The notes below the pieces were generated by a model that was given only the letters and a program-made list of their open reading frames with translations, was not told where the DNA came from and made no database searches. Source: Oscillospiraceae bacterium (GTDB lineage Bacteria; Bacillota; Clostridia; Oscillospirales; Acutalibacteraceae). From it: 64,000 nt of DNA. Every line of letters starts with the position of its first letter. The first letter of the stretch is position 1. The DNA lies in contig CADBBH010000001.1 of NCBI GenBank assembly GCA_902792905.1, positions 124,001 through 188,000 of the forward strand, written 5' to 3'. Positions 231-62,564 of this stretch are shown piece after piece. The position numbers and the translations under genes are program-made.

Positions 231-2141
231 TTACCACCCCTTGATTATTGAATTGAACATACCGTAAAGCGCGGTATATATCATACTTACAAAGTTATAG
301 AAGCCGATGCTTCTGAGGAAACCGGACATAAAGCCGAATAATGAACCGTCAAACGGAGTCTTTATCTCATTTTTGATTATACTGCCGTCTGTTGCGGGAA
401 CATCTCCGTTAAGCAGAGTAAATGCCTGAGTTCTCTCGCCGAGCGGGGTCACCGAACCGAATGCCGTATAGCTGACGGTTATGTTCACTCTGCAGTTTGA
501 TTTTTCGGGAACTTTGCCTTTTATCGGAATTTCGACATTTTCGCCCTGTTTTATAACCGTAAAGGGTTTTACGGTGAAATAAATATCATCGCAGTCACAT
601 ACTACACTCTTGATAAGAAGGTCTCTGTCCTGTTCCGTCACATTCCTGAGAATCAGGCATGTATCCTCGCTTGAGAGATAACCCTCGACACTCTTGTCAA
701 ATGCAACCCAGACGGCGTTTGAAGGGTTGGAGGAAGCGTGAAACTGCGGAAATCTCTTATCGGAGTAAACATCTTTTATCTTATCGGTCAGCGTCAGAGC
801 CATCAGCAACTCTCTTGTATATGAATCCCAGTAAGTCATGCCGTGAAACAGACCCGATACAAACCAGGTATGATCCGGCATATATGATGTTGAAGCGTCA
901 ATCGTCATTTCGGGAGAAAGTTTGTAATGACCGTCGCAGGGATTCTTTTGAATATATCCGTCGGGGAATCTCTCGCCGACATCGGTGCACACGGCACCGG
1001 TTGAGGATTTTGTCGGAATGATTCCGTCGCCCTGCGCCTGCCAGCCGGAAGTCATATTGATATCCGTGCCTGCGATTATCGAAACGTTCATACCGTATTC
1101 TTCATTGCAACGGTCGAGCGCGGTATAAAACTGCGGCATTACCTCATAATGCATATAATCGCTCTTTCGGATGATTTCGGCGTTTTTAACCGGGTCAAGC
1201 CATCTGGTCTTCATTTCTTCATATGCCTCAGTCGGGCAGAAATCCCATATACTGCCCCAGTGCCCCGCCACCTCGCAGAGATAGGGCACGAGCGCATTCA
1301 GAACATCATCGAGGAATCCGAGCTTTGTTGCCTCTACGAGCCAGTGATAATCATCCTCAGCCATTGTGCCGTGCTCGATGAATCTGACAAGATTATTCTC
1401 ATCGAACTTTATCTGCTGAGTAAGAATATCATAAGCCATTCCTGCTCCACCCGCTGCGGGAACGGTCAGGCAGGCATTTTTTACATCCTGCTTATAGCCG
1501 AAAAGAGTGAGATAGGTCGCAGTAACCTGACCGCCGTGACTCAGGCAAAAGATATTGACTTTATCCTTGCCGCTGTCTTCCTTGACTTCCTGAATGAATT
1601 CATCGAGTCGCGTTGCGCAGTCAACAGCGCCTTGTCTCCAGTCGCAATAGAAACTGTAAAGTTGCGAGCGAGAGATATATTCCATCATTCCGGCGGTAAT
1701 ATCGGGTTCATGCTGATATGTACCATCGCCGTATTTATCAAAGAGCACCTGATAATTTGATTCGTGTGCAGTGACGATTGTGGGCTTGAGATTATATGTG
1801 CTGCTGCCGTCGTCATTGCATTTTACCTTCTCAAGAAAAGCTATCGTCTCTTCACCGACAACCTTTGCGAGATAATCGGGTGAGCCGAATACAGCCGCTC
1901 CGAGACCGGCACCGACTTCCGCTATTCTGCTCAGCAGAATTCCGGGAATCTCACCGAAATCGGGATACCAGACGACCTGCTCGTTTCCATTCTCATCAAC
2001 CTCGGCAAGCTGAGGGCCGGCATATCCGGCAACGATAACCACGGGAAGGTCCGTATACCCTTCGACCGCTGAAAAAGCGATAAGATGCACGCCGGAGAAC
2101 AGAATGACAGCGGCGATCAGTAACGCAATAACCTTTTTCAT
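231..2141 (-). CDS. Secreted LCAT-like alpha/beta hydrolase (putative lipase/acyltransferase) with hydrophobic C-terminal tail
   Basis: 636 aa. An N-terminal signal peptide (MKKVIALLIAAVILF) indicates export. The body looks like the lecithin:cholesterol acyltransferase/lipase branch of alpha/beta hydrolases: a CDWR segment near residue 166, the nucleophile elbow FCLSHGGQ with Ser201 (Cys instead of the usual Gly two residues before it), a GDGIIPTKSS segment holding the likely acid, and DHTWFVSGLFHG holding the likely His. The last 35 or so residues are strongly hydrophobic, ending in MFNSIIKGW, a feature shared with the other exported proteins here. The substrate is unknown. A paralogue at 57952-59571 shares the DWR, IDAST and TWF landmarks. 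It lies just upstream of galT and downstream of an SDR gene. Confidence 0.72.
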   Translation of the reverse strand: MKKVIALLIAAVILFSGVHLIAFSAVEGYTDLPVVIVAGYAGPQLAEVDENGNEQVVWYPDFGEIPGILLSRIAEVGAGLGAAVFGSPDYLAKVVGEETIAFLEKVKCNDDGSSTYNLKPTIVTAHESNYQVLFDKYGDGTYQHEPDITAGMMEYISRSQLYSFYCDWRQGAVDCATRLDEFIQEVKEDSGKDKVNIFCLSHGGQVTATYLTLFGYKQDVKNACLTVPAAGGAGMAYDILTQQIKFDENNLVRFIEHGTMAEDDYHWLVEATKLGFLDDVLNALVPYLCEVAGHWGSIWDFCPTEAYEEMKTRWLDPVKNAEIIRKSDYMHYEVMPQFYTALDRCNEEYGMNVSIIAGTDINMTSGWQAQGDGIIPTKSSTGAVCTDVGERFPDGYIQKNPCDGHYKLSPEMTIDASTSYMPDHTWFVSGLFHGMTYWDSYTRELLMALTLTDKIKDVYSDKRFPQFHASSNPSNAVWVAFDKSVEGYLSSEDTCLILRNVTEQDRDLLIKSVVCDCDDIYFTVKPFTVIKQGENVEIPIKGKVPEKSNCRVNITVSYTAFGSVTPLGERTQAFTLLNGDVPATDGSIIKNEIKTPFDGSLFGFMSGFLRSIGFYNFVSMIYTALYGMFNSIIKGW

Positions 2142-2167
2142 TTAATTCACCCCATAAGAATCTGAGT

Positions 2168-3157
2168 TTACGCGGGATTTTCCTTGAGCCAGGCAACCGT
2201 ATCGCGCAGGGAATCCTCAGCGCTTCTCGGATTATAGTCGAGCTCTTTCGCCGCCTTTTCGTAGGAAAAATCGCAGTTTTCACAGACTTTGTTGATTGAA
2301 AACTCCGTCAGCACCGGCGGCCATTTCATAGTTTTGAAGAAAAGGGCAATTTCGGGACAGAGATGAAGCAATGTCTTTTTGCCCATCTTGATTACCGGAG
2401 GATGTCTGCCGTTGATTTTTGCGAGAGTCGAGATGAATTTATCGATTGTAATCGTTTCTCCGCAAAGGAAATACGCCTGGCCTCCCCTGCCTTTTTCCGC
2501 GGCGGCAATCATACCTTCCGCCACATCGCGCACATCGACAAAATTATATGCTCCGAAATCGAGACTGACTATAAACAGTCCCTTTTCATAAAGATTTATC
2601 ATAGTGCAGACGCTGTTATTATGGTAAATATCATCGGGACCTATGACACAACTGGGCTGGATGACAACGGTTTTGAGCTTATCGCAGTTTGAATCGATAA
2701 CAAACTGACTTGCCGCAGCCTTCGATTTGCCGTAGGCATCAGAAACAGCATCGGTATCGAAATGATCGACTTCCCGTATCGGGTGCATATCATCTGTAAC
2801 CTTTATGCAGTCAACGGATGAAACGAAAACGAGGTTTTTGACCCCGCAGGCTTTGCAGGCGTTGACTACATTTACCGTACCGTCATAGTTTACCTTCCAG
2901 ACAAGGTCATCCTTAGTGCCGGTTATATCAATCATACCGGCAACGTGATAGACTGTTTCCGCGCCCTCGAACGCTCTTAGCAGATAATCATAATCATTGA
3001 TATCGCCGAGACACTGCTCACAGCCGAAAGCGGCAAGTTCGGGTCTGTCCTTTCGCATGGACAGACGGACTCTTTCGCCCCTCGAGATCAGTTCCTTGAC
3101 GAGCGAATAACCGATATAACCGTTAGCACCGGTTATAACCGAAAGCGAATTATTCAT
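2168..3157 (-). CDS. NAD(P)-dependent epimerase/dehydratase, extended SDR family
   Basis: 329 aa. The N-terminal glycine-rich nucleotide-binding motif TGANGYIGYSLV and the later YGKSKAAA (catalytic Tyr-x-x-x-Lys) define an extended short-chain dehydrogenase/reductase. The layout resembles dihydroflavonol-4-reductase-like and sugar-nucleotide epimerase proteins (FVSSVDCI before the YxxxK). It probably acts in the cytosol on a nucleotide sugar or a small carbonyl compound, but the substrate cannot be read from the sequence. A good ribosome site (GAGGTGG) precedes the ATG. It lies between an esterase gene and the secreted LCAT-like gene on the same strand. Proximity to galT makes a sugar substrate attractive, but that is inference only. 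Confidence 0.8.
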   Translation of the reverse strand: MNNSLSVITGANGYIGYSLVKELISRGERVRLSMRKDRPELAAFGCEQCLGDINDYDYLLRAFEGAETVYHVAGMIDITGTKDDLVWKVNYDGTVNVVNACKACGVKNLVFVSSVDCIKVTDDMHPIREVDHFDTDAVSDAYGKSKAAASQFVIDSNCDKLKTVVIQPSCVIGPDDIYHNNSVCTMINLYEKGLFIVSLDFGAYNFVDVRDVAEGMIAAAEKGRGGQAYFLCGETITIDKFISTLAKINGRHPPVIKMGKKTLLHLCPEIALFFKTMKWPPVLTEFSINKVCENCDFSYEKAAKELDYNPRSAEDSLRDTVAWLKENPA

Positions 3158-3215
3158 TTTTCCACCTCACAAAGACGACAGGCAGACACATACCCCCCGG
3201 TATCCGCATGCCGCA

Positions 3216-3234
3216 CGGACGGAGAAGCCGTCCG
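3216..3234 (-). other. Intergenic hairpin without U-tract
   Basis: A perfect 7-bp inverted repeat (CGGACGG, loop AGAAG, CCGTCCG) lies 7 bases after the stop of the esterase gene. On the minus strand no T-run follows, so it is a poor intrinsic terminator. It may stabilise the mRNA 3' end or partly separate the esterase from the downstream SDR gene. Confidence 0.4.
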
Positions 3235-3241
3235 GTTTTGA

Positions 3242-3973
3242 CTAATTGAAGATTTTATTCAGCCAGCCGATGCAAAGATCGAACCAGGCAGCGCAATCCT
3301 CATTATATTCAACCTCTTCTTTTTTGCCGTAAACCGTGGAATCGGCAATTGAGAAGCCGTGCCATCCCTTTGCAAAGATATGCATTTCAAAGGGAATCTT
3401 ATTCGCGTCAAGCGACTCGGCATACTTCAGCGAATTTGCGACCGGCACACAGTCATCCTCCGCGGAAGCGAAAATGAATGCCGGCGGAGTCTTTTCATCA
3501 ACTTCGGTATCGACACCGGGAATCGGCTCCGCGAGAATCTTGCCGATCTTTTCGAGAATGCAGGGATAGCCGAGAATCTGCGCGTTCGGGCGCTCATCGC
3601 TCATGGTTGAGAGCGCGGCACAGAGATGGCCGCCCGCGGAGAATCCGATTGCCGCTATTTTATCGGGATCTATTCTCCATTTCTCCGCATTCTCGCGGAT
3701 TATTCTCATCGCCTCGGTTGCATCATCGAGCGGCCTCGGAAAAGCGCTGTTTTCCTTCAGAGAGTATCGCAGGATAAATGCCGCGTAGCCCTTGCCCATA
3801 AAAGCAAAAGCAACCGGCTCTGCCTCTCTGTCGGAACACATATAGTAACCGCCGCCCGGAATCACGAGAATTGCCTTTCTCTTATCAAGATAGGCCATTT
3901 CCTGAGAATAATCGGGAATATATGCCGTGAGAGTAACGCCCTCGTTTTTGAGATTCAATACGAAATTCTGCAT
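3242..3973 (-). CDS. Alpha/beta hydrolase, acetyl-esterase-like
   Basis: 243 aa with no signal peptide, so probably cytosolic. The oxyanion motif VIPGGGYY, the nucleophile elbow GFSAGGHL, the acid in SAEDDCVPV and the His in KGWHGFS give a full Ser-Asp-His triad. The layout is that of BD-FAE/Axe-like esterases, which remove acetyl groups from sugars or oligosaccharides. The gene lies directly downstream of the GH38 mannosidase (9 bases between stop and start) with a GAGGTG ribosome site. A role in trimming esterified glycans before or after mannosidase action is plausible, but the substrate is not shown. Confidence 0.8.
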   Translation of the reverse strand: MQNFVLNLKNEGVTLTAYIPDYSQEMAYLDKRKAILVIPGGGYYMCSDREAEPVAFAFMGKGYAAFILRYSLKENSAFPRPLDDATEAMRIIRENAEKWRIDPDKIAAIGFSAGGHLCAALSTMSDERPNAQILGYPCILEKIGKILAEPIPGVDTEVDEKTPPAFIFASAEDDCVPVANSLKYAESLDANKIPFEMHIFAKGWHGFSIADSTVYGKKEEVEYNEDCAAWFDLCIGWLNKIFN

Positions 3974-3981
3974 AAAGCACC

Positions 3982-6900
3982 TCAGTAGGTAATCTTGAGA
4001 GTTTTGATTTCAAATGGTCTGAAGGCAAGAGTTCCGCAATCCGCTTCGCCCTGAACCTCTTCGAGCATATTGGCAATTTCAACTTTTTTCGCACCGTCAA
4101 AAATCTTAACAGGGCAGGCGGTATATGTACCCTCCGCCTCATAGAGACGCGCGATGAACGCCTTCTCATTATCCTCGCAGGGCTTTATTGATTCAACGAT
4201 TATGTTGGCGCATTCGGGAATGACAAGAGGAATGAGATTGTAGCATCCCTTGCCCGCGACGGCGGGAACATTGAGCTCATATGCGGGTCTGATTACAGTC
4301 TCAGCCGAGAATCCGCCCCGATGGGGCAGGAAGGAATAGACCGTCTTATGCAGGCCGTGGTCGCCCGTGAAATCGGGTCTTGTGCCGCCCTTATGAAGCG
4401 AGAGACGCATTTTGCCGCCCTCAACGCTGATGGCATACTTGCCGTCATTGAGAATCGCGACGCCGCATCTTGTCTCCGAAAGGTCGGTATATTTATGATT
4501 GACAACCTCAAACTTTGCCTTCTCGATGGAATTATTGCGTGTAGTCGGTCTGAGAACGTTGCCGTACTGAATCTCGAATCTCGCGAAATCACTCTGAACC
4601 GCAGTATCAAAAGCGGTTTTGAGGAACCTGTGGTCATCATTCCAGTTCATCAGCGTATCAAACCTGATTTCGGGTGAACCGGCAAAGATTATCATATCCT
4701 GCTGAATCGAAGATTTCGGCGAAACCGAATACTGACTTCTGATAATAAGAGCAACTTCGCCTGCGGAGATGACTTTTCTGTCAAGAAGCTCGGAAGTGTC
4801 TCTGAATTTAAGCTCAAGGTCAGCGTCAACATCCCAGTTATCCCAGCTTGAGGGCAGATCCTCCGCCATAAGGAAGGTGTTGAATGAATAGCCGTCAGCA
4901 GCTTTGAGCTGTCTGCCGCTCGCCTTGTCAATATAGGATGAAATATAACCTTTTGAGTCAAATTCAATGTCGGCAAAATCAGTGGAAACCGCATCATCCT
5001 TGATTTCAAACGGGCAGTCTGCCTTGCATTCGCCGGGGAAGAGTTTTATCTCAATACTGGAGAAAGCGGGAATAGTAATACCGGAGAGAATAAGAATACT
5101 TTTACCGTCAAGGTCGGTATATCTCTGCTGTCTGCAATCAAGGTCGGCGATAAGACCGTTTTCGCATTCGATGAATATCGGATCGTTTCTGTCAAATGAG
5201 AGAGTATTAGTAACGGAAATGCAGTCACCCTCACCCGATGCTCTCTCTTTAATGAGTTCCTTAGCCGTTGCAATTACTTTGCCGGTCTGCTCGAGTGAAA
5301 GACGGTGAGCCGAGGGAATACAGGTTCCGGGAAGAAGATCATGGAACTGATTGAGAAGCAGGTCCTCCCAGAGGGGATGAATATCCTTATCGCCTGCGAT
5401 TTCGGAATCTCTGACCGCGTTGGAAACGGTCAGAAGCTCGAGGTCTCTGAGCAGGATTTCCGCTTTCCTGTTGTTGCGCTTGATATTATGCTGGTTTGTG
5501 AGCGTGCCTCTGTGAAGTTCAAGATAGAGTTCGCCTTTATATGTGGAAGGATTCTTTACATCCTTTTCGAGTTTCGGCATAAAATCGCCGACCCTCATAT
5601 GCTCCGATTTCGGAACGCCGTTGAGATCTTTGACTCTGCGGCTCATCTCAATCATTTCAAACTGCGGTCCGCCGCCGCCGTCGCCGTAGCCGTAGGCAAT
5701 CAGGCGCTCTTTGGTGACGCTTCTCTCCTTGAGGGATTCACCGTGGGTATTCGGACCGTCAAGCACGTGGTTGATATCCTCGGGACAGGGCCACATATGA
5801 GTTTTATTGAAATGGGTAAACACCTTTGTGCCGTCAATACCCTCCCACCAGAAAGTGTCATAGGGGAAGATGTTGGTATCGTTCCAGTCGATTTTGGTGG
5901 TGCAGAAGTAATCCACTCCGCAGCCCTTCATAATCTGCGGAATCGCCGCGCTGTAGCCGAAGGTATCGGGGAGCCAGAATGTATTGGAAGTGAAATTGAA
6001 ATGCTTTCTTGTGAATCTCTGACCCCAGAGGAACTGACGAACCATTGATTCGCCGCCGGTAATATTGCAGTCACATTCGACCCATACGCCGCCGTTGGGC
6101 TCATATCTGCCCTCTGCCACCTTTTCCTTGATTCTGTTGAAAAGCGAAGGATAATGCTGAAGGAGCATGTTGCCGTGGCAGGCGGATGACTGAACAAACA
6201 TATATTCAGGATACTGCTCCATTAGTGAGAGCTGATTCGAATATGTTCTTGCGCATTTCTTTATTGTCTCGGTTGATTTCCAGAGCCATGCAGTATCCAT
6301 ATGCGAATGACCGATAAGAGCCGCGAAGGGAGCTTCAGGGCCATTCTTAACGGCAAGCACTTCCTTGAGGAAAGGATGCGCCTCGCGCAGCGCCGCCCTG
6401 AAGGTGGCATCGTCGGTATCTTCGTATGAATAGTATACTCTCTTGTGAACTTCCATAAGGGCGTTGATAAGATCACCCTTTCTGAAAGATTCTGCGGGGA
6501 GGGCTTCGTAGAGTTCGTTGACAGTCATCAGGTCAAAATAGAATTCCTGAATAAGTTCATCCTTAGTGCAGATATCAATGCCGTCATAGCTGAATTTATA
6601 ATCAAGCAGAGGCTTATTTTCAAGAGGGCCGCAGCCTTTATATGAATGACCGGAATAAACCTCGAGGGCAATCTGAATCTTTTCGCCCGCTTTTACATTC
6701 TTCTTGAGAAGGTCGCAGTAATGATTGCCATGGCCGGTGAAAACTATCTTTGTCGCAAAGGTGCCGAATGGTTCGCCGTTCACCCAGAGCAGGGTTTCAT
6801 AACCCTGAGTATGGGGCATAATATATAGATCTTTACCGTCAAGTTCTTCAGGCACTGTATATTCGGCCTTATACCAGCAGAAGGTTTCCTCTCCTCCCCA

Positions 6901-7083: not shown

Positions 7084-7758
7084 TTACATCTTCCTTTCCG
7101 GTAATTTATTGAGAGGGCAGACGCGCATACAGATTCCGCACACGGCGCCTCTGCCGATTTTCTGAAACTGTTTTTTCATGTATTCGCTGCATTTTTCGGG
7201 ATCAAACATCTCTTCGCGCTGTGTTCCCGGAGAAAACTCCCTGCCGCTTATCGCGCCGGCCGGGCAGGCGGAAACGCAGATATCGCAACCGTCACACAGG
7301 CTGTAATCAAGTTCTCTTCCCGCTTCAAGCGGGCAGTCTGTAAAGACTGTTCCGAGCCTCACCATAGAGCCGAAATCCTTATGAATAAAGAGAGAGTTCC
7401 TGCCGATTGCTCCGAGCCCCGAGAGGCACGCGCCTTTTTTATGGGAATATCTGCCCGAATAATTCCAGCCGTCTTTGTTTATGCTCTGGGAGGCGGCAAC
7501 CGTGATATAGGAATATCCTTTTTTCTGAAGAAACAGACCTGCCTGAAGCAGAAGCCGGTCAATAAAAGCGTTCACCGCGCGATAATGATTGAAATAAGTG
7601 TGTGTAGGTTCGTCGCCTATTTCAGCGATAATCGCCGGCGAGAGCCGCACGACCACGCTGACACCGTATTTCATTGCGCCGTCTTCGCAGGAAAAGAACC
7701 CGACATCGCTCGCTCCTTCCGAGAGCAGAAACTCTTTAAGTTCTTTCGATATACTCAT
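7084..7758 (-). CDS. QueG-like double [4Fe-4S] cluster protein (short)
   Basis: 224 aa. The C-terminal half holds two cysteine sets, CDGCDICVSACP and CGICMRVCP, for two [4Fe-4S] clusters. The N-terminal half resembles the corrinoid-binding part of epoxyqueuosine reductase (GACLSGLGAIGRNSLFI). QueG proper makes queuosine in tRNA and is about 380 aa with HEAT-like repeats at the end. This protein lacks that C-terminal part, so it is better called QueG-like than queG. Its stop overlaps no neighbour, and the next gene (GH38) starts one base later. The start codon overlaps the prmA stop by four bases (ATGA), which indicates translational coupling. Confidence 0.78.
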   Translation of the reverse strand: MSISKELKEFLLSEGASDVGFFSCEDGAMKYGVSVVVRLSPAIIAEIGDEPTHTYFNHYRAVNAFIDRLLLQAGLFLQKKGYSYITVAASQSINKDGWNYSGRYSHKKGACLSGLGAIGRNSLFIHKDFGSMVRLGTVFTDCPLEAGRELDYSLCDGCDICVSACPAGAISGREFSPGTQREEMFDPEKCSEYMKKQFQKIGRGAVCGICMRVCPLNKLPERKM

Positions 7759-11539: not shown

Positions 11540-13021
11540 TTACAGCAATCCGAAAAACGAAAGAATCTTCGCGAAGAAATTGCGTATGGGAAGGAAACCT
11601 TCGTCAAAGCTCTCGGTACAGTTGCTGCCGTTGATCTCGCCGAGCGAGCCGTCTTCGGCTATCTCGAGAATCATATAGCTTATATGGGCAGGTTCGTCTT
11701 CATACAAAAGAGCCAGTTGGCCGTCCGCAAGCTCCGTGAGGCACGAATAGGCGCAGAATCCTTTATTGACATGGTATTTCGCGCCCCAGGTTATTCTGCC
11801 GTTCTCCTCAACTACGCCGGTCCTGACCACCCCGTCCGCTCTGGCGTTTTTGTTGCAGGCAAAGGAAGCGGCAACAGCCGGCTTGCCGCCGATTGCCTGA
11901 GCAAGATTTATAAATGAAACCATGCAGTTAGCGGTGCAGTCAAGGTCAATATCCGCCTTGGATTTCGTCCAGGTGACGCCACCGTCCGTGCTGTCACAGG
12001 CTGCGATATAGTGCGATTTATTGCGGGAGAACATTCGCAGATTACCGCCGGGCAATTCAATTAACTGAGATTCACTTGTTTTACCGGCTAGCAGAGTGTT
12101 TTTTACAATCTCTCCTCTTTTCCATGTTCCACCGTTGTCATCCGAATAAATCGTGCTTGTGTGTTCGATTCCGCCGTCATAAGTATAGACGGTAAAAATA
12201 ATTCTCTCCTTGCCGCCGGATTTTGTTATGAAACCTCTGCCGGGACAAGTGCCGAGAAATGTTTCTCCCGCCTTTTTGACCTGATGATTCAGGATAACGG
12301 GCGCACTCCAAGTATCTCCGCCGTCATCGGAATATCTGAGCCAGAGATATGAGGTATGCACAACCTCGTAAATATCGGAGTAAAAAACCGTCTGCTGTAT
12401 CTCTTTATCCGAGTTTATCTGCCTTATCAAAAGCGGCTCGCAGTCAAGATACAAACGGTACTCGTTATCGACGGTATATGCCGTCTCTTTCCCGCCCTCA
12501 ATTATATGCGCGATGCCTTCGGAAAAATCGCCGACATAAGCATCGCTCTCTTTTCCCGATTTATTGAGTTTAAGATGCCCGTCGGCAGTGAAACCCGTAT
12601 CCTTCGCTGAGTTCATACAGCCGGTATTATCGGCAAAGGCGTCAACGAGTGCGAAGATTCTGCCCGTTTCTTTTGACTGGATAATAACGGGATCAATGAA
12701 GCAGGCGCTGTCTTTGCTGCCCGTTCCGTCGGCACAGTCGTCAAAATAATTTATCTGTTTATACTCCCATTCGGAGTATCCGTCAGGCGAAACGGCAATT
12801 ACCGTATCAATATTCTGCGGAGAATCGGTGCCGTGATCATGGCGGTTATCCATTGCGGCGAGCACTCTGCCGTCATTGAGAGTAATGATTGCGGGGATTC
12901 TCATAAGTTCAATGCCATTCAGCCCTTTATAAAACGGCTGTGTGTAATTCTGAGCCGACGCGGAAACGACAGATGCCATAAGTATCACCGCCGATAAAAG
13001 AATTGAAATATATTTTTTCAT
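11540..13021 (-). CDS. Secreted exo-alpha-sialidase (GH33-like) with hydrophobic C-terminal tail
   Basis: 493 aa. The signal peptide MKKYISILLSAVILMASVV ends near SASA-QN. The catalytic fold is a six-bladed propeller: the RIP motif in LMRIPAIITL supplies an arginine, and Asp boxes appear as SDDGGDTW, SDDNGGTW and STDGGVTW. TSESQLIELPGG holds the likely catalytic Glu. The enzyme releases terminal sialic acid from host or mucin glycans outside the cell. The protein ends in FLPIRNFFAKILSFFGLL, an amphipathic-looking tail with no sortase motif. Only a weak ribosome site (AAGG, 11 bases from ATG) is visible. A terminator follows the gene. No sialic-acid catabolic genes are adjacent. Confidence 0.9.
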   Translation of the reverse strand: MKKYISILLSAVILMASVVSASAQNYTQPFYKGLNGIELMRIPAIITLNDGRVLAAMDNRHDHGTDSPQNIDTVIAVSPDGYSEWEYKQINYFDDCADGTGSKDSACFIDPVIIQSKETGRIFALVDAFADNTGCMNSAKDTGFTADGHLKLNKSGKESDAYVGDFSEGIAHIIEGGKETAYTVDNEYRLYLDCEPLLIRQINSDKEIQQTVFYSDIYEVVHTSYLWLRYSDDGGDTWSAPVILNHQVKKAGETFLGTCPGRGFITKSGGKERIIFTVYTYDGGIEHTSTIYSDDNGGTWKRGEIVKNTLLAGKTSESQLIELPGGNLRMFSRNKSHYIAACDSTDGGVTWTKSKADIDLDCTANCMVSFINLAQAIGGKPAVAASFACNKNARADGVVRTGVVEENGRITWGAKYHVNKGFCAYSCLTELADGQLALLYEDEPAHISYMILEIAEDGSLGEINGSNCTESFDEGFLPIRNFFAKILSFFGLL

Positions 13022-21633: not shown

Positions 21634-22803
21634 TCAGAAAGCAAAGAGAGACTTGATTACAGCGAATAAATACTTGATAAAGTATCCGAAATGCTCGGAA
21701 TCATCAACGGTTCTCGATTCGGACATAAACTGGTTATAGGCAACCTCGTCATCTTTATCAAAAAGATCAAAGTATGAAACGACTTCGGTCTCATAGGTAT
21801 CGGGCTCGTTTTCATCGAGAGTTATAAGGCGCACACCTTCGTCAATACTGTTATATGAGCGGAAGCCGACGCCGGGTGTATTGACAAGATCAACGCCCTT
21901 GTAGCTTATTTCGTAAGTATTGACATGGTCGTGGCCGAAGAACATCGCCATAACATCTCCGCGCTCAAGAATCGCGTCAAACTGACCGTTTGAATAATTG
22001 GGCGGACAGGGTGTTTCGCCGAGAACGCCTTTTGCGCCTTCGGGAAGAGTATAGAATTTGTCACCGTGTCCGACGCTGCCTTCAACTTTTTCATCGTGCT
22101 CGTCGAGAGCATCCCAGATTTCGGGGACGACTATGTGCTGGAACATAAGAGAGGGAATCTTGTGACCGTTTTCGCGCTCAAGTTTCTCGGAGGTTGATTT
22201 ATACCAGTCAATCTGCTTTTTGGTCACGCAGGCATATCCGCCGAGATCATTTTCTTCATTGTAAGTGCCTGAATCAATCATCCATATATTGCTGACCATT
22301 TTATTCTTATCGGCAGAAGAATAGATCGGAACATAATAGGTGCCGAGATTGCTCTCACCGAAATCCTCGCCCGCACAGCCGATAAAACACTTGTATCTCT
22401 CGTAAACGGACAGCTGATATGCCTTATCCGCAGTAGTGCTCTCATCATCGTGATTGCCGTAAACCATTACTACGGGAATGCCGTATTTCTCATAAATCGA
22501 CATAAATTCGTTAATTGCGAGAGCGGCATAGGGCTTTACAACGGATGTGCTCGCGATATTATCACCCGTCAAAACAATAAGGTCAACGGGATGTGTATCA
22601 AGTGCCTTTTTTATTACATTTTTGGTGATTGATTTCATCGGGAAATAATCCTGCATATCGGAAATCTGCATAATGCGGAATTTGCCGTCTTTGCCGAACT
22701 GCAGATGAGTGTCTGCTTCTTCGCTTGTCTTTGCAAAAGCAAGAACACCGCAACCAGCACAGATAATTAGAATGCTCAGAATAATTGAAATGATTTTTTT
22801 CAT
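21634..22803 (-). CDS. Secreted calcineurin-like metallophosphoesterase with hydrophobic C-terminal tail
   Basis: 389 aa from the ATG at 22803, which has AAGGAGA in front. The frame opens 34 codons earlier, but the signal peptide MKKIISIILSILIICAGCG (cleavage likely near AFA-K) begins here. Metal-binding motifs in order: MQISDMQDY, LTGDNIAS, YGNHDDES and FGHDHVN. It would cleave phosphoester bonds of an unknown outside substrate. The C-terminus EHFGYFIKYLFAVIKSLFAF is an amphipathic-looking tail shared with other exported proteins here. It has its own promoter with a palindrome near the transcript start, so it is probably regulated on its own. Confidence 0.87.
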   Translation of the reverse strand: MKKIISIILSILIICAGCGVLAFAKTSEEADTHLQFGKDGKFRIMQISDMQDYFPMKSITKNVIKKALDTHPVDLIVLTGDNIASTSVVKPYAALAINEFMSIYEKYGIPVVMVYGNHDDESTTADKAYQLSVYERYKCFIGCAGEDFGESNLGTYYVPIYSSADKNKMVSNIWMIDSGTYNEENDLGGYACVTKKQIDWYKSTSEKLERENGHKIPSLMFQHIVVPEIWDALDEHDEKVEGSVGHGDKFYTLPEGAKGVLGETPCPPNYSNGQFDAILERGDVMAMFFGHDHVNTYEISYKGVDLVNTPGVGFRSYNSIDEGVRLITLDENEPDTYETEVVSYFDLFDKDDEVAYNQFMSESRTVDDSEHFGYFIKYLFAVIKSLFAF

Positions 22804-22884
22804 ATTAGGCTCTCCTTTTTTATTATCGTTTCTGCCGAATAATTCAATGCCGCAAAACAGTTTCCCTGTATCAAACACCGGCTT

Positions 22885-22900
22885 GTTAGCATATGCTAAC
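22885..22900. promoter_or_regulatory. 16-bp perfect palindrome at the metallophosphoesterase transcript start (candidate operator)
   Basis: GTTAGCATATGCTAAC is a perfect 16-base inverted repeat. It lies 8 bases downstream of the -10 box on the minus strand, covering about +1 to +16, the usual place for a repressor site. Its partner regulator is not in sight. Confidence 0.6.
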
Positions 22901-22908
22901 GACATTAC

Positions 22909-27638: not shown

Positions 27639-27932
27639 TCAATCATCCGAATCATAATAGACGCGCTCCTCGGGTTTAACATAATTGTAATCCTCGCGGG
27701 CAACCTGCTCTATATATGATTCGTTATCGCCGTTGTCAATTGTTTCCTGAATTCGGCTGTTTTGTTCCTCTATCTCGGAAACAGTCTGGCTCATACTGCT
27801 TATTCTGTTCTCCTGCTCACGCTTAGTCTTCAGGCGTTTGCCGATGGCGAATGCAAAAACAATAAGCACTACAATACACACGCCTATCATCGCGACTCTT
27901 ATCAGTTTTTTGGTACGCGGATTATTGTTCAT
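27639..27932 (-). CDS. divIC: Cell-division protein of the FtsB/DivIC family
   Basis: 97 aa. Short cytosolic N-terminus, one membrane helix (about 11-29, VAMIGVCIVVLIVFAFAIG), then a coiled coil (about 33-65) and the FtsB/DivIC end motif IEQVAREDYNYVKPEERVYY. It forms part of the FtsL-FtsB/DivIC-FtsQ/DivIB divisome complex on the outer face of the membrane. A promoter with 17-base spacing lies 51 bases upstream. It is followed by the S1-domain gene, the usual neighbour. Confidence 0.9.
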   Translation of the reverse strand: MNNNPRTKKLIRVAMIGVCIVVLIVFAFAIGKRLKTKREQENRISSMSQTVSEIEEQNSRIQETIDNGDNESYIEQVAREDYNYVKPEERVYYDSDD

Positions 27933-28311: not shown

Positions 28312-28324
28312 CTCAATGCTTATC

Positions 28325-28750
28325 TTATTTTTTCTTAGCAGCTTTCTTTGCAGGAGCTTTCTTTGCGGGAGCTTTCTTTGCGGGAGCAGCTTTCTTTGCA
28401 GGAGCAGCTTTCTTTGCGGGAGCTTTCTTTGCAGGAGCAGCTTTCTTTGCGGGAGCCTTCTTTGCGGGAGCCTTTTTCTTAGCTACAGCGTCTTTAAGAG
28501 CCTTGCCTGCCTTGAAAGCGGGAACCTTTGTTGCGGGAACCTTAACTGCCTTACCGGTCTGGGGGTTACGGGCAGTCTTGGCAGCGCGATTGCGAACCTC
28601 GAAGGTACCGAAGCCGACGAGCTGAACCTTGTCGCCCTTTGCAAGAGCGTCGGTGATAGCGTCAGTAACAGCCTTAACTGCTGCTTCTGCGGCTTTCTTC
28701 TCGATCTTCTCTTTTGCTGCGATGGCAGCTACGAGTTCTGTCTTGTTCAT
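28325..28750 (-). CDS. hup: HU-family DNA-binding protein with histone-H1-like Lys/Ala/Pro tail
   Basis: 141 aa. Residues 1-90 are a standard HU fold: MNKTELVAAIAA, the GFGTFEVRNRAAKTARNPQTG beta-arm region, and PAFKAGKALKDAV. The last 50 residues are almost only Lys, Ala and Pro in repeats of KKAPAKKA/KKAAPAKKA. This resembles the C-terminal tails of mycobacterial HupB and eukaryotic linker histone H1. The HU core bends and wraps DNA; the tail should add non-specific DNA binding or condensation. The repeats are also visible at the DNA level as tandem GCTTTCTTTGC blocks, so repeat number may vary between strains. Confidence 0.94.
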   Translation of the reverse strand: MNKTELVAAIAAKEKIEKKAAEAAVKAVTDAITDALAKGDKVQLVGFGTFEVRNRAAKTARNPQTGKAVKVPATKVPAFKAGKALKDAVAKKKAPAKKAPAKKAAPAKKAPAKKAAPAKKAAPAKKAPAKKAPAKKAAKKK

Positions 28751-28804
28751 TGTGTTTCTCCATTCTTCTTTTTATTTTATGAGACGCCTCACGGCGATCA
28801 TATT

Positions 28805-29602
28805 CTATTGATTTGCCTTAATTTCATCCCAAAGGGAATCAAGGACTTCGAGCGGCGCCTGTTTCATATCAATTCCTCTCTGAGTCGCAAGCTTCTCAAC
28901 CTGCGAAAACCTGTCAAGGAATTTATCGTTTGCTTTGGTAAGTGCTTCTTCGGAATCAACCTTGATAAATCTTGATACATTGACCATAGAAAACAGCAGG
29001 TCACCGAATTCTTCTTCGATATGAGTTTTGTCGCCGGAGGCAATTGCCTCTTTTAATTCAAGTGTTTCCTCGCTGAGTTTATCAAGAGCGCCCGAGGCAT
29101 CAGGCCAATCAAATCCCACATCGGCCGCCTTTTTCTGCAACTTGGTTGCTCTCATCAGAGCAGGCAACTCGCGCGGAACGCTTATCATTGAATCCGCAAT
29201 GGTTTTGCGACCTTTGGTTTTATTCTTGATCTCATCCCAATTTGAGAGAACTTTATCAACAGTTTCGGCCTCAACATCGCCGAAAACATGAGGATGACGG
29301 ACTATCAGCTTTTTACAGATGCCGTCGCAGACATCATCAAAATCAAACGAGCCCTGCTCCTTCTCAATCTGAGCGTGGAAAACGACCTGCATCATAATAT
29401 CACCGAGTTCTTCGCATAAAAGGTCTTTATCGTTTTTGTTGATTGCCTCGATAACTTCATAGGTCTCTTCGATAAAATTCTGCTTTATGCTCTCGTGAGT
29501 CTGCTTTGCATCCCACGGGCATCCGCCCGGTTGTCTCAGCAAAGCCATAATCTCAAGCAGGTCAACAATATTATAATCATCTTTTTGTATAAAGTCAACC
29601 AT
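28805..29602 (-). CDS. mazG: Nucleoside triphosphate pyrophosphohydrolase MazG
   Basis: 265 aa with two MazG domains. The first has CPWDAKQTHESIKQNFIEE and LLCEELGDIMMQVVFHAQ, the second EEFGDLLFSMVNVSRF. The acidic residues bind Mg2+. The enzyme cuts NTPs to NMP and pyrophosphate and clears non-canonical nucleotides; in E. coli it lowers (p)ppGpp-linked signalling. It lies between a flippase gene and hup, within a longer minus-strand run that starts near recJ and relA. Confidence 0.94.
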   Translation of the reverse strand: MVDFIQKDDYNIVDLLEIMALLRQPGGCPWDAKQTHESIKQNFIEETYEVIEAINKNDKDLLCEELGDIMMQVVFHAQIEKEQGSFDFDDVCDGICKKLIVRHPHVFGDVEAETVDKVLSNWDEIKNKTKGRKTIADSMISVPRELPALMRATKLQKKAADVGFDWPDASGALDKLSEETLELKEAIASGDKTHIEEEFGDLLFSMVNVSRFIKVDSEEALTKANDKFLDRFSQVEKLATQRGIDMKQAPLEVLDSLWDEIKANQ

Positions 29603-54498: not shown

Positions 54499-54515
54499 CG
54501 TATAAACACAGTATT

Positions 54516-56624
<2,109 letters not shown>

Positions 56625-56654
56625 AAATGTATATTTATCAGGAAGGAGATATTT

Positions 56655-57896: not shown

Positions 57897-57914
57897 TCCC
57901 AATAAATATTATAA

Positions 57915-57945
57915 GCCCGGAGGGTTTCCTCCGGGCATTTTGTTA
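57915..57945 (+). terminator. Terminator after the M28 peptidase
   Basis: Stem GCCCGGAGG / CCTCCGGGC with loop GTTT, followed by ATTTTGTTATT. The minus side (CTTATAATATT) could also end the convergent LCAT-like gene. Confidence 0.85.
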
Positions 57946-57951
57946 TTCTGC

Positions 57952-59571
57952 TCAGCTTCTTGCGGGAAGCATAAAGATTTTTGATAAAAATGTAATGACT
58001 TTGAATAATACTTTGAAAACGGGTTTAACTATACGGGCAAAGCTCTTTGCGTTATTTTCATTGTATTCATCGAGTTTCGTCTGCTTCTCGGTTGAAACGA
58101 GCGGCTCAAGTTTATCATCTTCGTCGCTGTAGAATAAATACTGCGGATATTCTCTGTCATTTGACGCATCGGGCTTTTCCGTATTCACAATATGGAAAAT
58201 GAGGCTGTCGATGCTTTCGGGGAAATCTTTGTGTTTAAGATTCTTTATAAACCAGGTGCTGTCCTTGAGAAGACCTGTGGAGGCGTCTATCGCAAGGTCC
58301 GGGGAAATATATCTGTAATCTCCGTCTGAAAAAGAATTTCTCAGATAAGAATCGCCGAGAGTCTTACCGATTTTCATACAGGTCGTGCCGAATCCGGCTC
58401 TGTCAACCCTGACTATCGTATCAGACTGAATATCGCAATGCTCCGAAAGCGGATAACTCTGGAAGCCGTATTTGACTATATCCGAAACTTTGACTCCGCT
58501 CTCCTGAGCGTTCTTGATTATGTCCTCAGCCTTATTCATGATGTTGTAATGATAGTTGTCAATCTTCTCTATCATTTTTGAATAAGTTTCTTCCTCGCCG
58601 CCGAATATTACCTGCTTCGCCTCTTCATAGTATTCATCATCACACATTGCCCAGAAGCCGGGGAAGGTGCCGAATGTCTTTCTCAAGGCGGCGGGCGTTA
58701 CGGTTTCGCAGATCTGCTCATAGACATTATTGACCGCCCAGCATGCATAATCGAGGCAGTAAATGTCGCTGGTTATACGCAGTATATCCCTGACCGTCTC
58801 ATCGGTTATTATCATATCCTCACCGAGAGCGATATTAAGGCCCATATCGGTCTCATAAGCGCATCTCTCAACAGCGTCGGGGTCAATACGCATATTTCCG
58901 CTGAACGCTTCGCCTACCGGAATCGCGCCCTTAGCAGCAGAAGCATAAAAAATCATATCGCTGATTCTCTCATCATGATATGTTTCCCAATAGGTCAGCA
59001 GAAGGCAGGCGCCCTCGCATCTGCCGGCAAGTGCATATTTTTCACTGCCGGTCACTTTGAGTATCGTTTCGGCGTAATCATGAAGGCGCTCCATATTATC
59101 GGTCGGATCAAGGCGCCAGTCATATACAAACCAGAAACAGTTGAGATTTTTCTCGCCGTAGAGATATCTGTTTCTTACATAATCCTCGGTATAGTTGATT
59201 ACGCTTTCCGAGCCGTCAACAGGCATACCGTCTGTTCCGAGAGCAAGCTCGCCGAACTGACTGACCATATAATCTTCAACCATTTTGCAGAAATCGGTCC
59301 AGTCCTGAGTTGCAATCGCTTTGAGAATCATATCTGAGTTTTCGCTCAGCACTCCGGTAAGATCGGTCCCCTCGAGCGACATATCATCGCCCTTGACTCT
59401 CTGATACGAGCCGTCCTCCTGCTTTATTCCGAGATGGGAGCCCTGACCGTGAATGAAGATTACGGGTACTTTGCCGCCGTATTCATCCGCCGAAACGGGC
59501 AGGCAGAAACATGCGCCCAGAATCATAATCAGTGAAACTGCAACACACAGCATTTTCTTTGACAGTGTCAT
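57952..59571 (-). CDS. Secreted LCAT-like alpha/beta hydrolase with Cys at the nucleophile position and C-terminal tail
   Basis: 539 aa from the ATG at 59571 (GAGG six bases before it; a GTG four codons earlier is less likely). The signal peptide MTLSKKMLCVAVSLIMILG ends near PVSA-DE. VIFIHGQGSHLG is the oxyanion-side motif, FVYDWRLDP the LCAT-type DWR, and ALAGRCEGACLL the nucleophile elbow with Cys185 where Ser is expected. SDTIVRVD and the His in TWFIKNLKHKD are candidates for the rest of the triad. It shares IDAST...TWF and overall order with the 636-aa protein at 231-2141 (Ser201). The last 28 residues form a hydrophobic, Lys-dotted tail. Substrate unknown. Confidence 0.75.
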   Translation of the reverse strand: MTLSKKMLCVAVSLIMILGACFCLPVSADEYGGKVPVIFIHGQGSHLGIKQEDGSYQRVKGDDMSLEGTDLTGVLSENSDMILKAIATQDWTDFCKMVEDYMVSQFGELALGTDGMPVDGSESVINYTEDYVRNRYLYGEKNLNCFWFVYDWRLDPTDNMERLHDYAETILKVTGSEKYALAGRCEGACLLLTYWETYHDERISDMIFYASAAKGAIPVGEAFSGNMRIDPDAVERCAYETDMGLNIALGEDMIITDETVRDILRITSDIYCLDYACWAVNNVYEQICETVTPAALRKTFGTFPGFWAMCDDEYYEEAKQVIFGGEEETYSKMIEKIDNYHYNIMNKAEDIIKNAQESGVKVSDIVKYGFQSYPLSEHCDIQSDTIVRVDRAGFGTTCMKIGKTLGDSYLRNSFSDGDYRYISPDLAIDASTGLLKDSTWFIKNLKHKDFPESIDSLIFHIVNTEKPDASNDREYPQYLFYSDEDDKLEPLVSTEKQTKLDEYNENNAKSFARIVKPVFKVLFKVITFLSKIFMLPARS

Positions 59572-59675
59572 AATGAACCTCACTTACAGTATTGCCGCAA
59601 TTTTAATAATTATACTTTAGTCTAATTTAGAAATATATAGTTAAAATTCAAGTGTTGTCCGTAATCTCAAAGTGC

Positions 59676-59707
59676 AAAAATGCACGGCAGGTTTATTTTG
59701 CCGCGCA
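59676..59707 (-). terminator. Terminator of the GNAT gene
   Basis: Stem TGCGCGGCA / TGCCGTGCA (one G-U pair), 9-base loop, followed on the minus strand by TTTTTGCAC. It lies 10 bases after the stop. Confidence 0.75.
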
Positions 59708-59716
59708 TTTTTTAAG

Positions 59717-60292
59717 TTATAATGTCTTTTCAAATTCATTTTTAATTTCTGGAAAAGGTTTAATACCTTCAACATTTTCCGTTTCTATAATCTTTTCCAT
59801 CCAGACAATATCATAAAATCTGCCGAATTTACGCCCGCATTTATTATGCCTGCCGACCAACGAATAACCCATATGAGCGTGAAAATCAGGTGAGTTGAGA
59901 TTTATGAAATCATCGTTATCTTCCGCAGGATAACCGATGCAGGCATAGAGATTTGAAATTCCCTGCATTGAAAGCGCTCTCTCATGTGCCGAATAAAGTG
60001 CCCTGCCGTAACCGCGGTGAAGACAATCCTTGTTGAGATAAATCGTATTCTCAACACAGTGGGTATATGCCTCTCTGTCTCTGAAAACTGAGGAATAGGC
60101 ATAACCGACGATTTTTCCTTCATCTTCGCAGACAAGATATGGATATTTTTTGAGAATTCTCTCGATTCTGCCTGCAAACTCTTCTTCGGTCGGCGATGTT
60201 ATCTCAAAAGAGATTGCCGTGTTCTCAACATAGTATCTATAGATTTCAAGCAGAACGGGCGCATCCTGCACTCTCGCAATTCTGATAATCAT
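59717..60292 (-). CDS. GNAT N-acetyltransferase, phosphinothricin-acetyltransferase-like
   Basis: 191 aa. The opening IRIARVQDAPVLLEIYRYYVENTAISFE is the common start of the PAT/MddA group of GNAT enzymes. HRGYGRALYSAHERAL is the acetyl-CoA pyrophosphate loop (Q/R-x-x-G-x-G/A). It transfers acetyl from acetyl-CoA to an amine, perhaps methionine sulfoximine-like or other amino-acid analogues. The actual substrate is unknown. It is a single gene with a terminator, between the second LCAT-like gene and the CHAP gene. Confidence 0.88.
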   Translation of the reverse strand: MIIRIARVQDAPVLLEIYRYYVENTAISFEITSPTEEEFAGRIERILKKYPYLVCEDEGKIVGYAYSSVFRDREAYTHCVENTIYLNKDCLHRGYGRALYSAHERALSMQGISNLYACIGYPAEDNDDFINLNSPDFHAHMGYSLVGRHNKCGRKFGRFYDIVWMEKIIETENVEGIKPFPEIKNEFEKTL

Positions 60293-60368
60293 TTTCGGCT
60301 CTTCTTTCCCTGATTTATTGTATCGGAATTATATCATATTTGCCGGTATAATTCAATATAAATGAAGC

Positions 60369-60390
60369 GGACTGCGGAAACCCGCAGTCC
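60369..60390 (-). terminator. Hairpin terminator after the CHAP gene
   Basis: A perfect 9-bp stem (GGACTGCGG / CCGCAGTCC, loop AAAC) just after the CHAP stop. The T-tract on the minus strand is weak (GCTTCATTTAT), so efficiency may be modest. Confidence 0.6.
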
Positions 60391-60398
60391 TTCTTGTA

Positions 60399-61094
60399 TT
60401 ATTTTATGATTTTGTCTAAGAGTGAGGATATAAACGCGAGGCCCTTTATGAGCAACGCAAAAAATCCCATAACTGATGACAATTTGTCGGAGGCGCCGGC
60501 AACATCCGGAGCACCGGAATCCGCACCGGTCAGCGGAGAATCCGGAGCAAGTTCAGCCGCGGCAAATACCGAAACGGGCTTGTCATCTGCGCCGTGATAA
60601 GTTGAAACGGATTCATTTCCCGTCTCTTCAGTCTGAGGATCATCACCGAAATTCGGGTGAATGCAACCCCAGTAGCATCTCCAGGAATAAAGGCCGGTGT
60701 ATTGAACTGTATACATACATCCGGACCAATTCTGGTGATAGGTGGAATAATCGCTTTCATAGATTCCCACATGGCCGTTATAGCCGTTTGTGTAAATCAG
60801 GATGTCGCCCTTCTGCGGAACGCCGCCTTGGGTGCGGGTCCATCCATCGGGCAGATTTACGCTTGCATAGCTGCGTCCTGAGATATCATTGGGAGATTCT
60901 CCGAGAAACTCATAATAAGCCTCAATGAGATCAACGCAGTAGCCGCCGCCGAAACGATGTCCGAGATTCGATTTAACCCAGGCAACCGCTTCGTCGCTCG
61001 TGACAGATGTGGCGGAAGCGTTTATTCCGAACACTCCTGCAAGCATCATCACGCACAGTGCAAGCGAAAGAATTCTTTTTAATTTTTGTGTCAA
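60399..61094 (-). CDS. Secreted CHAP-domain amidase/endopeptidase with hydrophobic C-terminal tail
   Basis: 231 aa from a TTG at 61094, with AGAGGT six bases before it; the frame continues upstream across the promoter but without a good start. The signal peptide LSLALCVMMLAGVFG ends near ASA-TS. CHAP signatures: GGGYCVDLIEAYYEFL (catalytic Cys), GDILIYTNGYNGHVGIYES (His) and a later Asn in HQNWSG. It would cut peptidoglycan peptides. A Gly/Ser/Ala-rich linker (about 160-205) leads to the tail SVMGFFALLIKGLAFISSLL-DKIIK. It is divergent from the GH25 lysozyme gene with the same sort of tail. Confidence 0.85.
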   Translation of the reverse strand: MTQKLKRILSLALCVMMLAGVFGINASATSVTSDEAVAWVKSNLGHRFGGGYCVDLIEAYYEFLGESPNDISGRSYASVNLPDGWTRTQGGVPQKGDILIYTNGYNGHVGIYESDYSTYHQNWSGCMYTVQYTGLYSWRCYWGCIHPNFGDDPQTEETGNESVSTYHGADDKPVSVFAAAELAPDSPLTGADSGAPDVAGASDKLSSVMGFFALLIKGLAFISSLLDKIIK

Positions 61095-61148
61095 AACTTT
61101 ACCTCTTCTGTATTTTTTGTGAGCAATCAAATAATACAAGCGAGAGGT

Positions 61149-61177
61149 ACTATACCACAAAAATACATTTTTGTCAA
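61149..61177 (-). promoter_or_regulatory. Sigma-A promoter of the CHAP gene
   Basis: Minus strand: perfect TTGACA (61172-61177) and TATAGT (61149-61154), 17 bases apart, about 55 bases before the TTG start. Confidence 0.85.
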
Positions 61178-61260
61178 GTTTTATACCTTTACAGTCATAT
61201 CCAGCTATGGTTATGAAGGGTAAAAATTATTGATTTATTAACAAATATATGCAATATTAA

Positions 61261-61269
61261 TGGTATAAT
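61261..61269 (+). promoter_or_regulatory. Extended -10 promoter of the GH25 gene
   Basis: TGGTATAAT is a full extended -10 motif with a perfect TATAAT; no good -35 at 17 bases. About 44 bases before the ATG, which has GGAGG. Confidence 0.6.
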
Positions 61270-61313
61270 AAATAAGATATTTACAAATGCTACTTGTATA
61301 AACGGAGGACAAT

Positions 61314-62564
61314 ATGAGAAAAATTTTCAAATCCATACTGTGCATTACGCTCAGCCTGATTATGCTCGGCGCCGCGCTGACGCCCGCCGTTTTTGCAGCA
61401 CTTGATGATCCTCTGGACGGCAGGCTTGAAAAAAATACGGTAAAAGGAACAAATTCTGTCCAGGAGGATACCGATTATCAGCACGCCGATAAATTCCTTG
61501 CAGGCGGCTACACAATTGCGGAGATGATAGATGTTTCGTCTCATAACGGCAACATCAACTGGTCCGCGGTAGCGGCATCCGGAATAAAATACGCAATTAT
61601 CCGCGCAGGCTGGAGAGGATACGGCGATGAGGGTACGCTCAATACCGATACAAAATTCGCCGAGAATATCAGGGGCGCGATAGCAGCCGGAATCAATGTG
61701 GGCGTTTATTTCTATACCCAGGCGACCAATAATAAAGAGGCGATAGCAGAAGCGGAATATACTCTCGGTACAATTTCGGGCTATGACCTGAAGCTCCCTG
61801 TCGCATATGACTGCGAATTTGCTTCAAGCGGCGGCTCATACACAGGCAGATTCTATGAAGCAAATCTAACTTCAGATCAGATTGCCTCAATGTGCAACGC
61901 GTTCTGCGACAGAATAAAGGCAGCCGGATATGATGCCATCGTCTATGCGAATCCCTATATGCTGACTTCAAAAATCAATGTCTCCGCGCTCGGTTCCACT
62001 CCCATCTGGCTCGCATCCTATTCAGACACCGCCAAATGGGACGGCGATTACATTATGTGGCAGTATACCGGCAAAGGCATCTGCGACGGTATCAGTGGCT
62101 ACGTAGACCGCAGTTTTTATTATATAAAAGACGGCACCAAGGTTGAAGATTTCAGAGTTCACTCTTCTAAAACCACAGTCTATCTCGGAGAAACCGGTCA
62201 GGTTTCGGCGTTTATTGACAGAGACTATTATGTGTCGCTCGGTTGCAAAGTCAGTGATGTAACCTGGACTTCTTCCGACGAGGCGGTAATGACAGTAGCT
62301 TCCGACGGCACTCTGACAGCGGTCGCAACCGGTTCGGTTACAATCACCGGCACAGTGACTGTTTCTGTCCCGAATCCGGATGCTCCCGGCACCTACGTCG
62401 ATATGGTACTTACCAAGTATCTTAACCTTGCAGCAACTGAAAAACCGCCCGAGCCCGATCCGGCCAATGCGGGAAACATTATAGAAATGCTGCTTAATTT
62501 CTTTATGATGTTTGCAAAACTGATTGCAAGGCTGTTTTCGGCAATTGCCGGAAATGCCGGTTAA
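61314..62564 (+). CDS. Secreted GH25 lysozyme with Big_2-like domain and hydrophobic C-terminal tail
   Basis: 416 aa. The signal peptide MRKIFKSILCITLSLIMLG ends near VFA-AL. The GH25 barrel (about 70-275) has MIDVSSHNGNINW, IIRAGWRGYG, GVYFYTQA and the catalytic DxE in VAYDCEFAS, plus IMWQYTGKG. A bacterial Ig-like (Big_2) domain follows (about 285-375: VTWTSSDEAVMTVASDGTL). After a Pro-rich linker (EKPPEPDPANAG) comes a 28-residue tail, MLLNFFMMFAKLIARLFSAI-AGNAG. It cuts the N-acetylmuramic acid-GlcNAc bond of peptidoglycan. A terminator follows. Confidence 0.92.
   Translation: MRKIFKSILCITLSLIMLGAALTPAVFAALDDPLDGRLEKNTVKGTNSVQEDTDYQHADKFLAGGYTIAEMIDVSSHNGNINWSAVAASGIKYAIIRAGWRGYGDEGTLNTDTKFAENIRGAIAAGINVGVYFYTQATNNKEAIAEAEYTLGTISGYDLKLPVAYDCEFASSGGSYTGRFYEANLTSDQIASMCNAFCDRIKAAGYDAIVYANPYMLTSKINVSALGSTPIWLASYSDTAKWDGDYIMWQYTGKGICDGISGYVDRSFYYIKDGTKVEDFRVHSSKTTVYLGETGQVSAFIDRDYYVSLGCKVSDVTWTSSDEAVMTVASDGTLTAVATGSVTITGTVTVSVPNPDAPGTYVDMVLTKYLNLAATEKPPEPDPANAGNIIEMLLNFFMMFAKLIARLFSAIAGNAG

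Follow-up and report, generated by a model that had tools for sequence, protein, structure and literature searches.

Amphipathic C-terminal tails on unrelated exported proteins of a clostridial genome as candidate membrane anchors

Exported proteins of the window and their tails

The window is a 64,000-nucleotide stretch (positions 124001-188000 of contig C1, genome G000) from an Oscillospiraceae bacterium of the family Acutalibacteraceae, and the element under study is a short amphipathic tail at the extreme C-terminus of its exported proteins. The host genome comprises 2.07 Mb in 24 contigs and is 84.4% complete; three relatives obtained from one contig scan are metagenome-assembled genomes of uncultured Clostridia, one of which originates from water-buffalo rumen. 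Among the 54 called window proteins of at least 100 residues, all six that carry a predicted signal peptide and are free of internal transmembrane (TM) segments possess the tail (Table 1). A preliminary description of this DNA had quoted the ends of these six proteins; the translations reproduce them as quoted, and 6/6 pass the tail criterion. No tail is present on any of the 33 cytosolic proteins of at least 100 residues, and one of the 15 TM-class proteins (15236) passes the plain hydrophobicity measure described below, whereas none passes the amphipathic-helix (AH) measure.

Table 1. Positions of the C-terminal tails of the six exported proteins in the window
Feature	Position	Strand	Remarks
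Last 30 residues of exported hydrolase-like protein 231-2141	234..323	-	From translation; passes AH measure, moment 0.51
Last 19 residues of exported BNR-repeat sialidase-like protein 11540-13021	11543..11599	-	Moment 0.59; Pfam BNR_2
Last 18 residues of exported metallophosphoesterase 21634-22905	21637..21690	-	Moment 0.62; Pfam Metallophos
Last 28 residues of exported protein 57952-59583, homologue of 231-2141	57955..58038	-	Moment 0.66
Last 26 residues of exported CHAP-like protein 60399-61160	60402..60479	-	Moment 0.49; CHAP under Pfam cut-off
Last 29 residues of exported GH25 + Big_2 protein 61314-62564, behind Pro-rich linker	62475..62561	+	Moment 0.63

Proteins were obtained with a purpose-written simple gene caller and sorted by a crude rule for Sec signal peptides and lipoboxes together with a TM counter, and identical rules were applied to all sampled genomes. 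The classes are SPI (type-I signal peptide, no internal TM), SPII (lipobox), TM and cytosolic, with proteins shorter than 100 residues left unclassified; the SPI class holds some false calls, namely pilin-like proteins and some soluble enzymes, and the TM class holds some soluble proteins. The plain tail measure requires at least 9 FILMVWY residues in the best 15-mer within the last 28 residues. To pass the AH measure, a protein needs, within its last 35 residues, a 16-mer that contains 9 or more FILMVWY residues and reaches a Fauchere-Pliska moment of 0.38 or higher; any 19-mer with a Kyte-Doolittle value of at least 2.1 in the last 45 residues excludes it. Tails were counted in an 864 kb sample of the host genome (42% of it).

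The "LCAT-like" label previously given to proteins 57952 and 231 lacks Pfam support: the former has no match at E 0.01, and the latter has only a sub-threshold match to an alpha/beta-hydrolase. Because these two proteins are homologous to one another, the assignment of the six to five unrelated families is correct. The GH25 and Big_2 domains of 61314-62564 stop at residue 349, and a low-confidence structure model of this protein places a helix at residues 383-413. The signal peptides of 21634 and 60399 start downstream of the open reading frame (ORF) starts. Elsewhere in the window, ORF 27639-27932 (97 residues) carries a hydrophobic segment at its N-terminus and lacks a tail, and it is probably a single-pass membrane protein. 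ORF 28316-28975 (plus strand) consists of repeated Ser-Phe-Leu-Cys-Arg/Gly units and overlaps 28805-29602 on the opposite strand; it is probably the antisense of a low-complexity stretch.

Enrichment, helical periodicity and modularity of the tails

In the genome sample, the AH measure is reached by 27/59 SPI, 2/26 SPII and 11/420 cytosolic proteins (SPI versus cytosolic, p 2.6e-19), and by 22/54, 1/25 and 11/387, respectively, when the window is removed. The plain measure gives a similar distribution, with 31/59 SPI, 2/26 SPII and 15/420 cytosolic proteins (Fisher p 2e-21) and, without the window, 26/54 SPI versus 15/387 cytosolic proteins (Fisher p 6e-17). Internal segments of SPI proteins reach the plain measure in 5%, and the SPI class lies above both other classes at all twelve threshold pairs tried. 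The expected enrichment at the C-terminus of signal-peptide proteins is thus borne out, and the tail is far from equally common on cytosolic proteins, either in the window or in the sample. The earlier statement that every exported protein is tailed holds within the window, whereas in the genome sample about half of the type-I exported proteins are tailed. Among the amphipathic-tailed proteins, 27/29 are called type I and two are called lipobox. Both lipobox calls are doubtful, since the homologues of 57952 have no conserved lipobox and the sequence of L042:10793 continues to an AFA site, and both proteins are probably type I; the called lipoproteins are mostly tail-less.

The helical character of the tails was assessed on an 18-mer core that was picked by hydrophobicity and not by moment. 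The mean moment of 29 tails is 0.42 at 100 degrees, compared with 0.212 for shuffles (z 11.4), and falls to 0.18 at 80 degrees and 0.16 at 120 degrees. The six window tails pooled give 0.47 versus 0.209 for shuffles (z 6.3), in agreement with the high helical hydrophobic moment that had been anticipated. No helical periodicity is seen in the hydrophobic control sets, which comprise cytosolic C-termini (15, z 0.5), internal hydrophobic segments of exported proteins (88, z 0.8) and TM helices (the first 200 of 263, z 0.9). Composition was determined on 28 tails, a set that excludes five exported proteins with a 19-mer hydropathy of at least 2.0 in the last 45 residues, including the CHAP-like protein of the window (2.09), which the later cut of 2.1 readmits. 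Acidic residues account for 2.4% of the tails versus 13.8% of cytosolic C-termini, Phe/Trp/Tyr for 26.8% versus 9.9%, and Lys plus Arg for 8.3% versus 10.8%. The tails had been described as rich in Phe, Leu and Ile with Lys or Arg at helical spacing; the periodicity is confirmed, but the tails are not rich in Lys and Arg. Their positive net charge reflects the near absence of acidic residues, and the net charge is zero in several individual tails.

The tails behave as modules that are separate from the bodies carrying them. Homologous exported bodies end in unalignable tails, as in the two homologous window proteins 57952 and 231 together with L044:12861 and L029:15688, and the alignment of the GH3-like proteins L042:3065 and L042:14105 stops at 719/872 and 746/870, with unalignable tails beyond. 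Homologues thus place the tail outside the shared body, contrary to what would be expected if the segment belonged to the catalytic fold. Some tail-less homologues seem to be anchored by another route: L007:925 has a lipobox and no tail, whereas its homologue L043:4682 combines a type-I signal with a tail, and L014:2094 has a Lys-rich hydrophobic N-terminus, whereas its homologue, the metallophosphoesterase of the window, is tailed. Homologues that share 73% and 60% identity with 57952 retain the tail pattern with different letters, as is the case in L023 and L024. Eight kinds of protein above the Pfam cut-off carry tails (BNR_2, Metallophos, GH25 with Big_2, GH28/beta-helix, LRR_5 with List_Bact, GH3, GDSL lipase and Cthe_2159), and CHAP, below the cut-off, is a ninth tail-bearing domain. 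In GH25 proteins from other genomes of the class, such a tail is found in 0/12 usable complete ORFs; these derive from 30 loci, of which 17 gave none and one (L184) the wrong ORF, and five of the 12 have a type-I signal call.

Two further observations concern Cys-containing ends. The metallophosphoesterase L021:14499-15914 has a Cys/His knuckle (CPYCHEPHEGF) just ahead of its amphipathic tail, possibly a third tail type in addition to the two homologous domains described below. The adjoining exported proteins L034:9123-10070 and L034:10132-11681 share 78% identity over 212 residues and have differing Cys-rich ends (CSYCLGE and CEFCAG).

Two homologous tail domains and their distribution

Two subsets of tails, named A2 and A1, are homologous domains, and the remaining tails share the physical pattern only. 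No tail model was found in Pfam (13 proteins scanned) or NCBIfam (12 scanned). The A2 domain has the consensus VxVxxGFFxKIIAFFRxLFxxLP, in which the helical part GFFxKIIAFFRxLFxxLP follows a beta-strand-like VxVxxG, and beyond the helix the tail continues into a polar end. The host genome contains 17 A2 matches, and reading of every end locates all 17 at the C-terminus: 0-2 residues separate the match from the stop codon in 13/17, and 5, 7, 9 and 16 residues do so in the remaining four. One of the 11 tailed cytosolic cases counted above is an A2 tail on a gene truncated at the edge of a sampled stretch (L016:18182, open frame of 1071 residues). In the genus, 44/45 genomes match, with up to 35 copies, and the sole non-matching genome is 64% complete. 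At E 1e-4, 3/394 genomes of the order match, namely the host and two of one sister genus in the family; at E 1e-3, 3/391 genomes of the class match, namely the host and two with marginal short matches. Contig region C13:2901-17346, with pieces in L194, L195, L197, L204 and L205, holds five A2-tailed open frames within about 15 kb, which suggests a cluster of tailed surface proteins.

In the A1 domain, the helix is bracketed by Cys and His residues (CxCxCH...LFGxNxxCxCGxxH; L047-L069 and L042:8184-10724). Seven aligned sequences share invariant Cys and Cys-His before the helix and Cys-x-Cys-Gly-x-x-His after it, and this arrangement looks as if it were suited to a metal or a disulphide. Twenty-three loci were collected; the bracketed end was read in 13 by pattern and additionally in L056, L057 and L064, one extra row of the pattern reading is a chance match on the opposite strand, and the remaining loci are unconfirmed by reading. 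At E 0.01, 17/60 relatives match, all in the genus (the weakest matches are unconfirmed by reading), and 3/392 genomes of the class match, including the host, the other two being partial and without the full bracket.

Interpretation and comparison with known anchors

The tails sit at the very end of proteins with a predicted signal peptide, are helically amphipathic, are exchanged as modules and have a range that follows a clade; these features favor their interpretation as generic, interchangeable in-plane membrane anchors of the kind found on Escherichia coli PBP5, here borne by at least eight Pfam-recognised kinds of protein; we assign this reading a probability of roughly 60%. Each of these proteins combines a predicted Sec signal peptide with a body that is otherwise soluble, and its terminal 15-25 residues follow the pattern of an alpha-helix with a Phe/Leu/Ile face and a polar face that is on average net-positive. 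After export and removal of the signal peptide, the tail would sit in the outer leaflet of the cytoplasmic membrane with the oily face down, and hydrolases would thereby be kept at the cell rather than diffuse off, in the manner of the C-terminal helix of PBP5. Two subsets, A1 and A2, have turned into homologous tail domains. Membrane binding, retention and a benefit of the tails are what we infer from this pattern. On a larger scale, the odds appear even that such tails serve a single clostridial genus, and marginally a sister genus, as a general surface-display route. Each genome would then hold probably tens of unrelated hydrolases and adhesins on the outer face of the membrane by tethers that need neither lipid nor sortase; some tethers would by now be dedicated tail domains, among them the Cys/His-bracketed type with its possible metal or disulphide clasp.

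Several results weigh against the anchor interpretation. With the crude signal-peptide rule, such a tail is missing from 32/59 SPI proteins, and for some homologues without a tail no substitute anchor is apparent (for example, L021:13494 versus L021:14499). The range samples outside the host genome, which is the strongest case among those sampled, are small, and in them the AH enrichment is reduced in four further genus members (10/48 SPI versus 17/281 cytosolic, p 2e-3) and is not seen in five genomes of other genera in the family (1/33 versus 6/267) or in two genomes of the order (0/11 versus 11/191). All cytosolic C-termini pooled show a small helical excess (0.261 versus 0.214), far above which the moment of the tails nevertheless lies. 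Two structure predictions are of low confidence, with mean pLDDT values of 42.4 and 32.6. The agreement of the window tails with the A2 cores is moderate, as 0, 4, 12, 18, 18 and 30 of 300 shuffles equal them, and E. coli DacA (PBP5) contains no domain by the A2 profile. Additionally, the DacA-like carboxypeptidase of the host itself (G000:C19:3560-4989; L206, L207) ends in a TM helix followed by a charged tail instead of an amphipathic helix.

Alternatively, the tail may be a sorting or processing signal for a dedicated machine, comparable with LPXTG, PEP-CTERM and GlyGly-CTERM, and the helix would hold the protein until it is cut or moved. The conservation in A2 and A1 of residues beyond amphipathicity (LP after the helix and the Cys/His bracket) and the confinement of both domains to a clade are consistent with this proposal, but most tails have no common motif, TM helix or basic end. 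The host genome has three sortase matches, yet no tailed protein has an LPXTG-TM-basic end, and exosortase (PF09721) is unmatched in it, as are Omp85 and SLH (PF00395), absences that are not final at 84% completeness. A sorting function is considered unlikely.

Slightly less probable is the association of the tails with each other or with a matrix, in helix bundles or modulin-like aggregates, which would hold the proteins at the surface without membrane insertion. There is a precedent in LspU of Staphylococcus aureus, a modulin-like amphipathic helix that traps secreted lipases at the surface (PMC12607899), and the A1 bracket could clasp partners. The tails are, however, short, monomer-like and unalignable between homologues, and lipid binding therefore fits better than specific pairing. 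Membrane-active peptides have a composition and a moment comparable to those of the tails, so that proteolysis might free the tails as cationic amphipathic antimicrobial peptides; this is very improbable, as no conserved cleavage motif is seen, several tails have no net charge, and the A2 tails extend past the helix into the polar end. Least probable, and rejected here despite the low confidence of both structure models, is the view that the segments are C-terminal helices of catalytic folds, because the tails fall outside the Pfam domains and past the point where paralogues cease to be homologous, and are absent from the 12 GH25 ORFs of other class genomes.

Surface holding usually relies on attached lipids or wall-anchoring signals, which in-plane tails, if real anchors, would replace; a general retention route would then be added to lipidation, sortase, SLH, wall-binding repeats and TM ends. 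The secreted enzymes of these uncultured Clostridia would be read as cell-bound rather than released, which decides whether digestion products remain with the cell. The A2 domain provides a profile that is searchable at once, and such tails could act as small lipid-free display tags.

With the LPXTG/sortase system, the tails share the role of a C-terminal surface-retention signal. The host genome has at least two LPXTG-like ends: L003:12765-13613 and L038:4408-4950 end in PVETG and PSDTG, followed by an Ala-rich segment and KKKA or KKRAA, and are probably substrates of its own sortases. Several exported proteins of other genera also end in LPXTG-TM-basic signals. A motif search of the 33 tailed proteins yielded two strings, both chance hits that lack a TM segment and a basic end, and SLH is unmatched in the tailed proteins scanned, in line with the absence of LPxTG, basic sorting ends and SLH noted earlier. 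PEP-CTERM/exosortase and GlyGly-CTERM/rhombosortase likewise involve a C-terminal homology domain that many signal-peptide proteins per genome share without being related elsewhere (PMC1569441, PMC3237569), but those domains consist of a motif, a TM helix and a basic cluster, whereas the present tails are amphipathic helices without TM. Membership in PEP-CTERM is rejected on the exosortase result and membership in GlyGly-CTERM on the hydropathy of the tails, which indicates no TM, and on reading them by eye, with no search made for rhombosortase; the type-I calls of the tailed proteins argue against lipoproteins. LspU resembles the tails as an amphipathic helix that keeps secreted enzymes near the cell, and differs in being a separate small protein that acts in trans through aggregates.

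The closest counterpart is E. coli PBP5, whose C-terminal amphipathic helix attaches the enzyme to the cytoplasmic membrane; PBP5 lacking the last 18 residues is soluble and mislocalised, and the manner of anchoring matters (PMC2909392). Apart from the PBP5 and LspU reports, no title or abstract among the open-access matches listed, in several cases the best 8-12 of up to 275, concerns such anchors, and the part of a 2025 minireview on Gram-positive protein trafficking covered here uses "amphipathic" once, for SecE (PMC12445088). The tails had been proposed as an unknown signal; the anchor type is in fact already known from PBP5. In the Pfam, NCBIfam and open-access literature scanned, no description was found of such anchors serving many unrelated exported proteins as a general route, or of the tail domains limited to the genus. 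DacA shares with the tailed proteins a signal peptide, a soluble body and a terminal amphipathic helix (of about 18 residues in DacA); its tail passes the AH measure with a moment of 0.66 and scores against the A2 cores, without gaps, better than 1996/2000 of its own shuffles. This likeness is claimed as one of working, not of descent. The tailed proteins scanned have bodies of other Pfam families in place of the carboxypeptidase, and the helix that PBP5 carries on one family is found here on many unrelated proteins.

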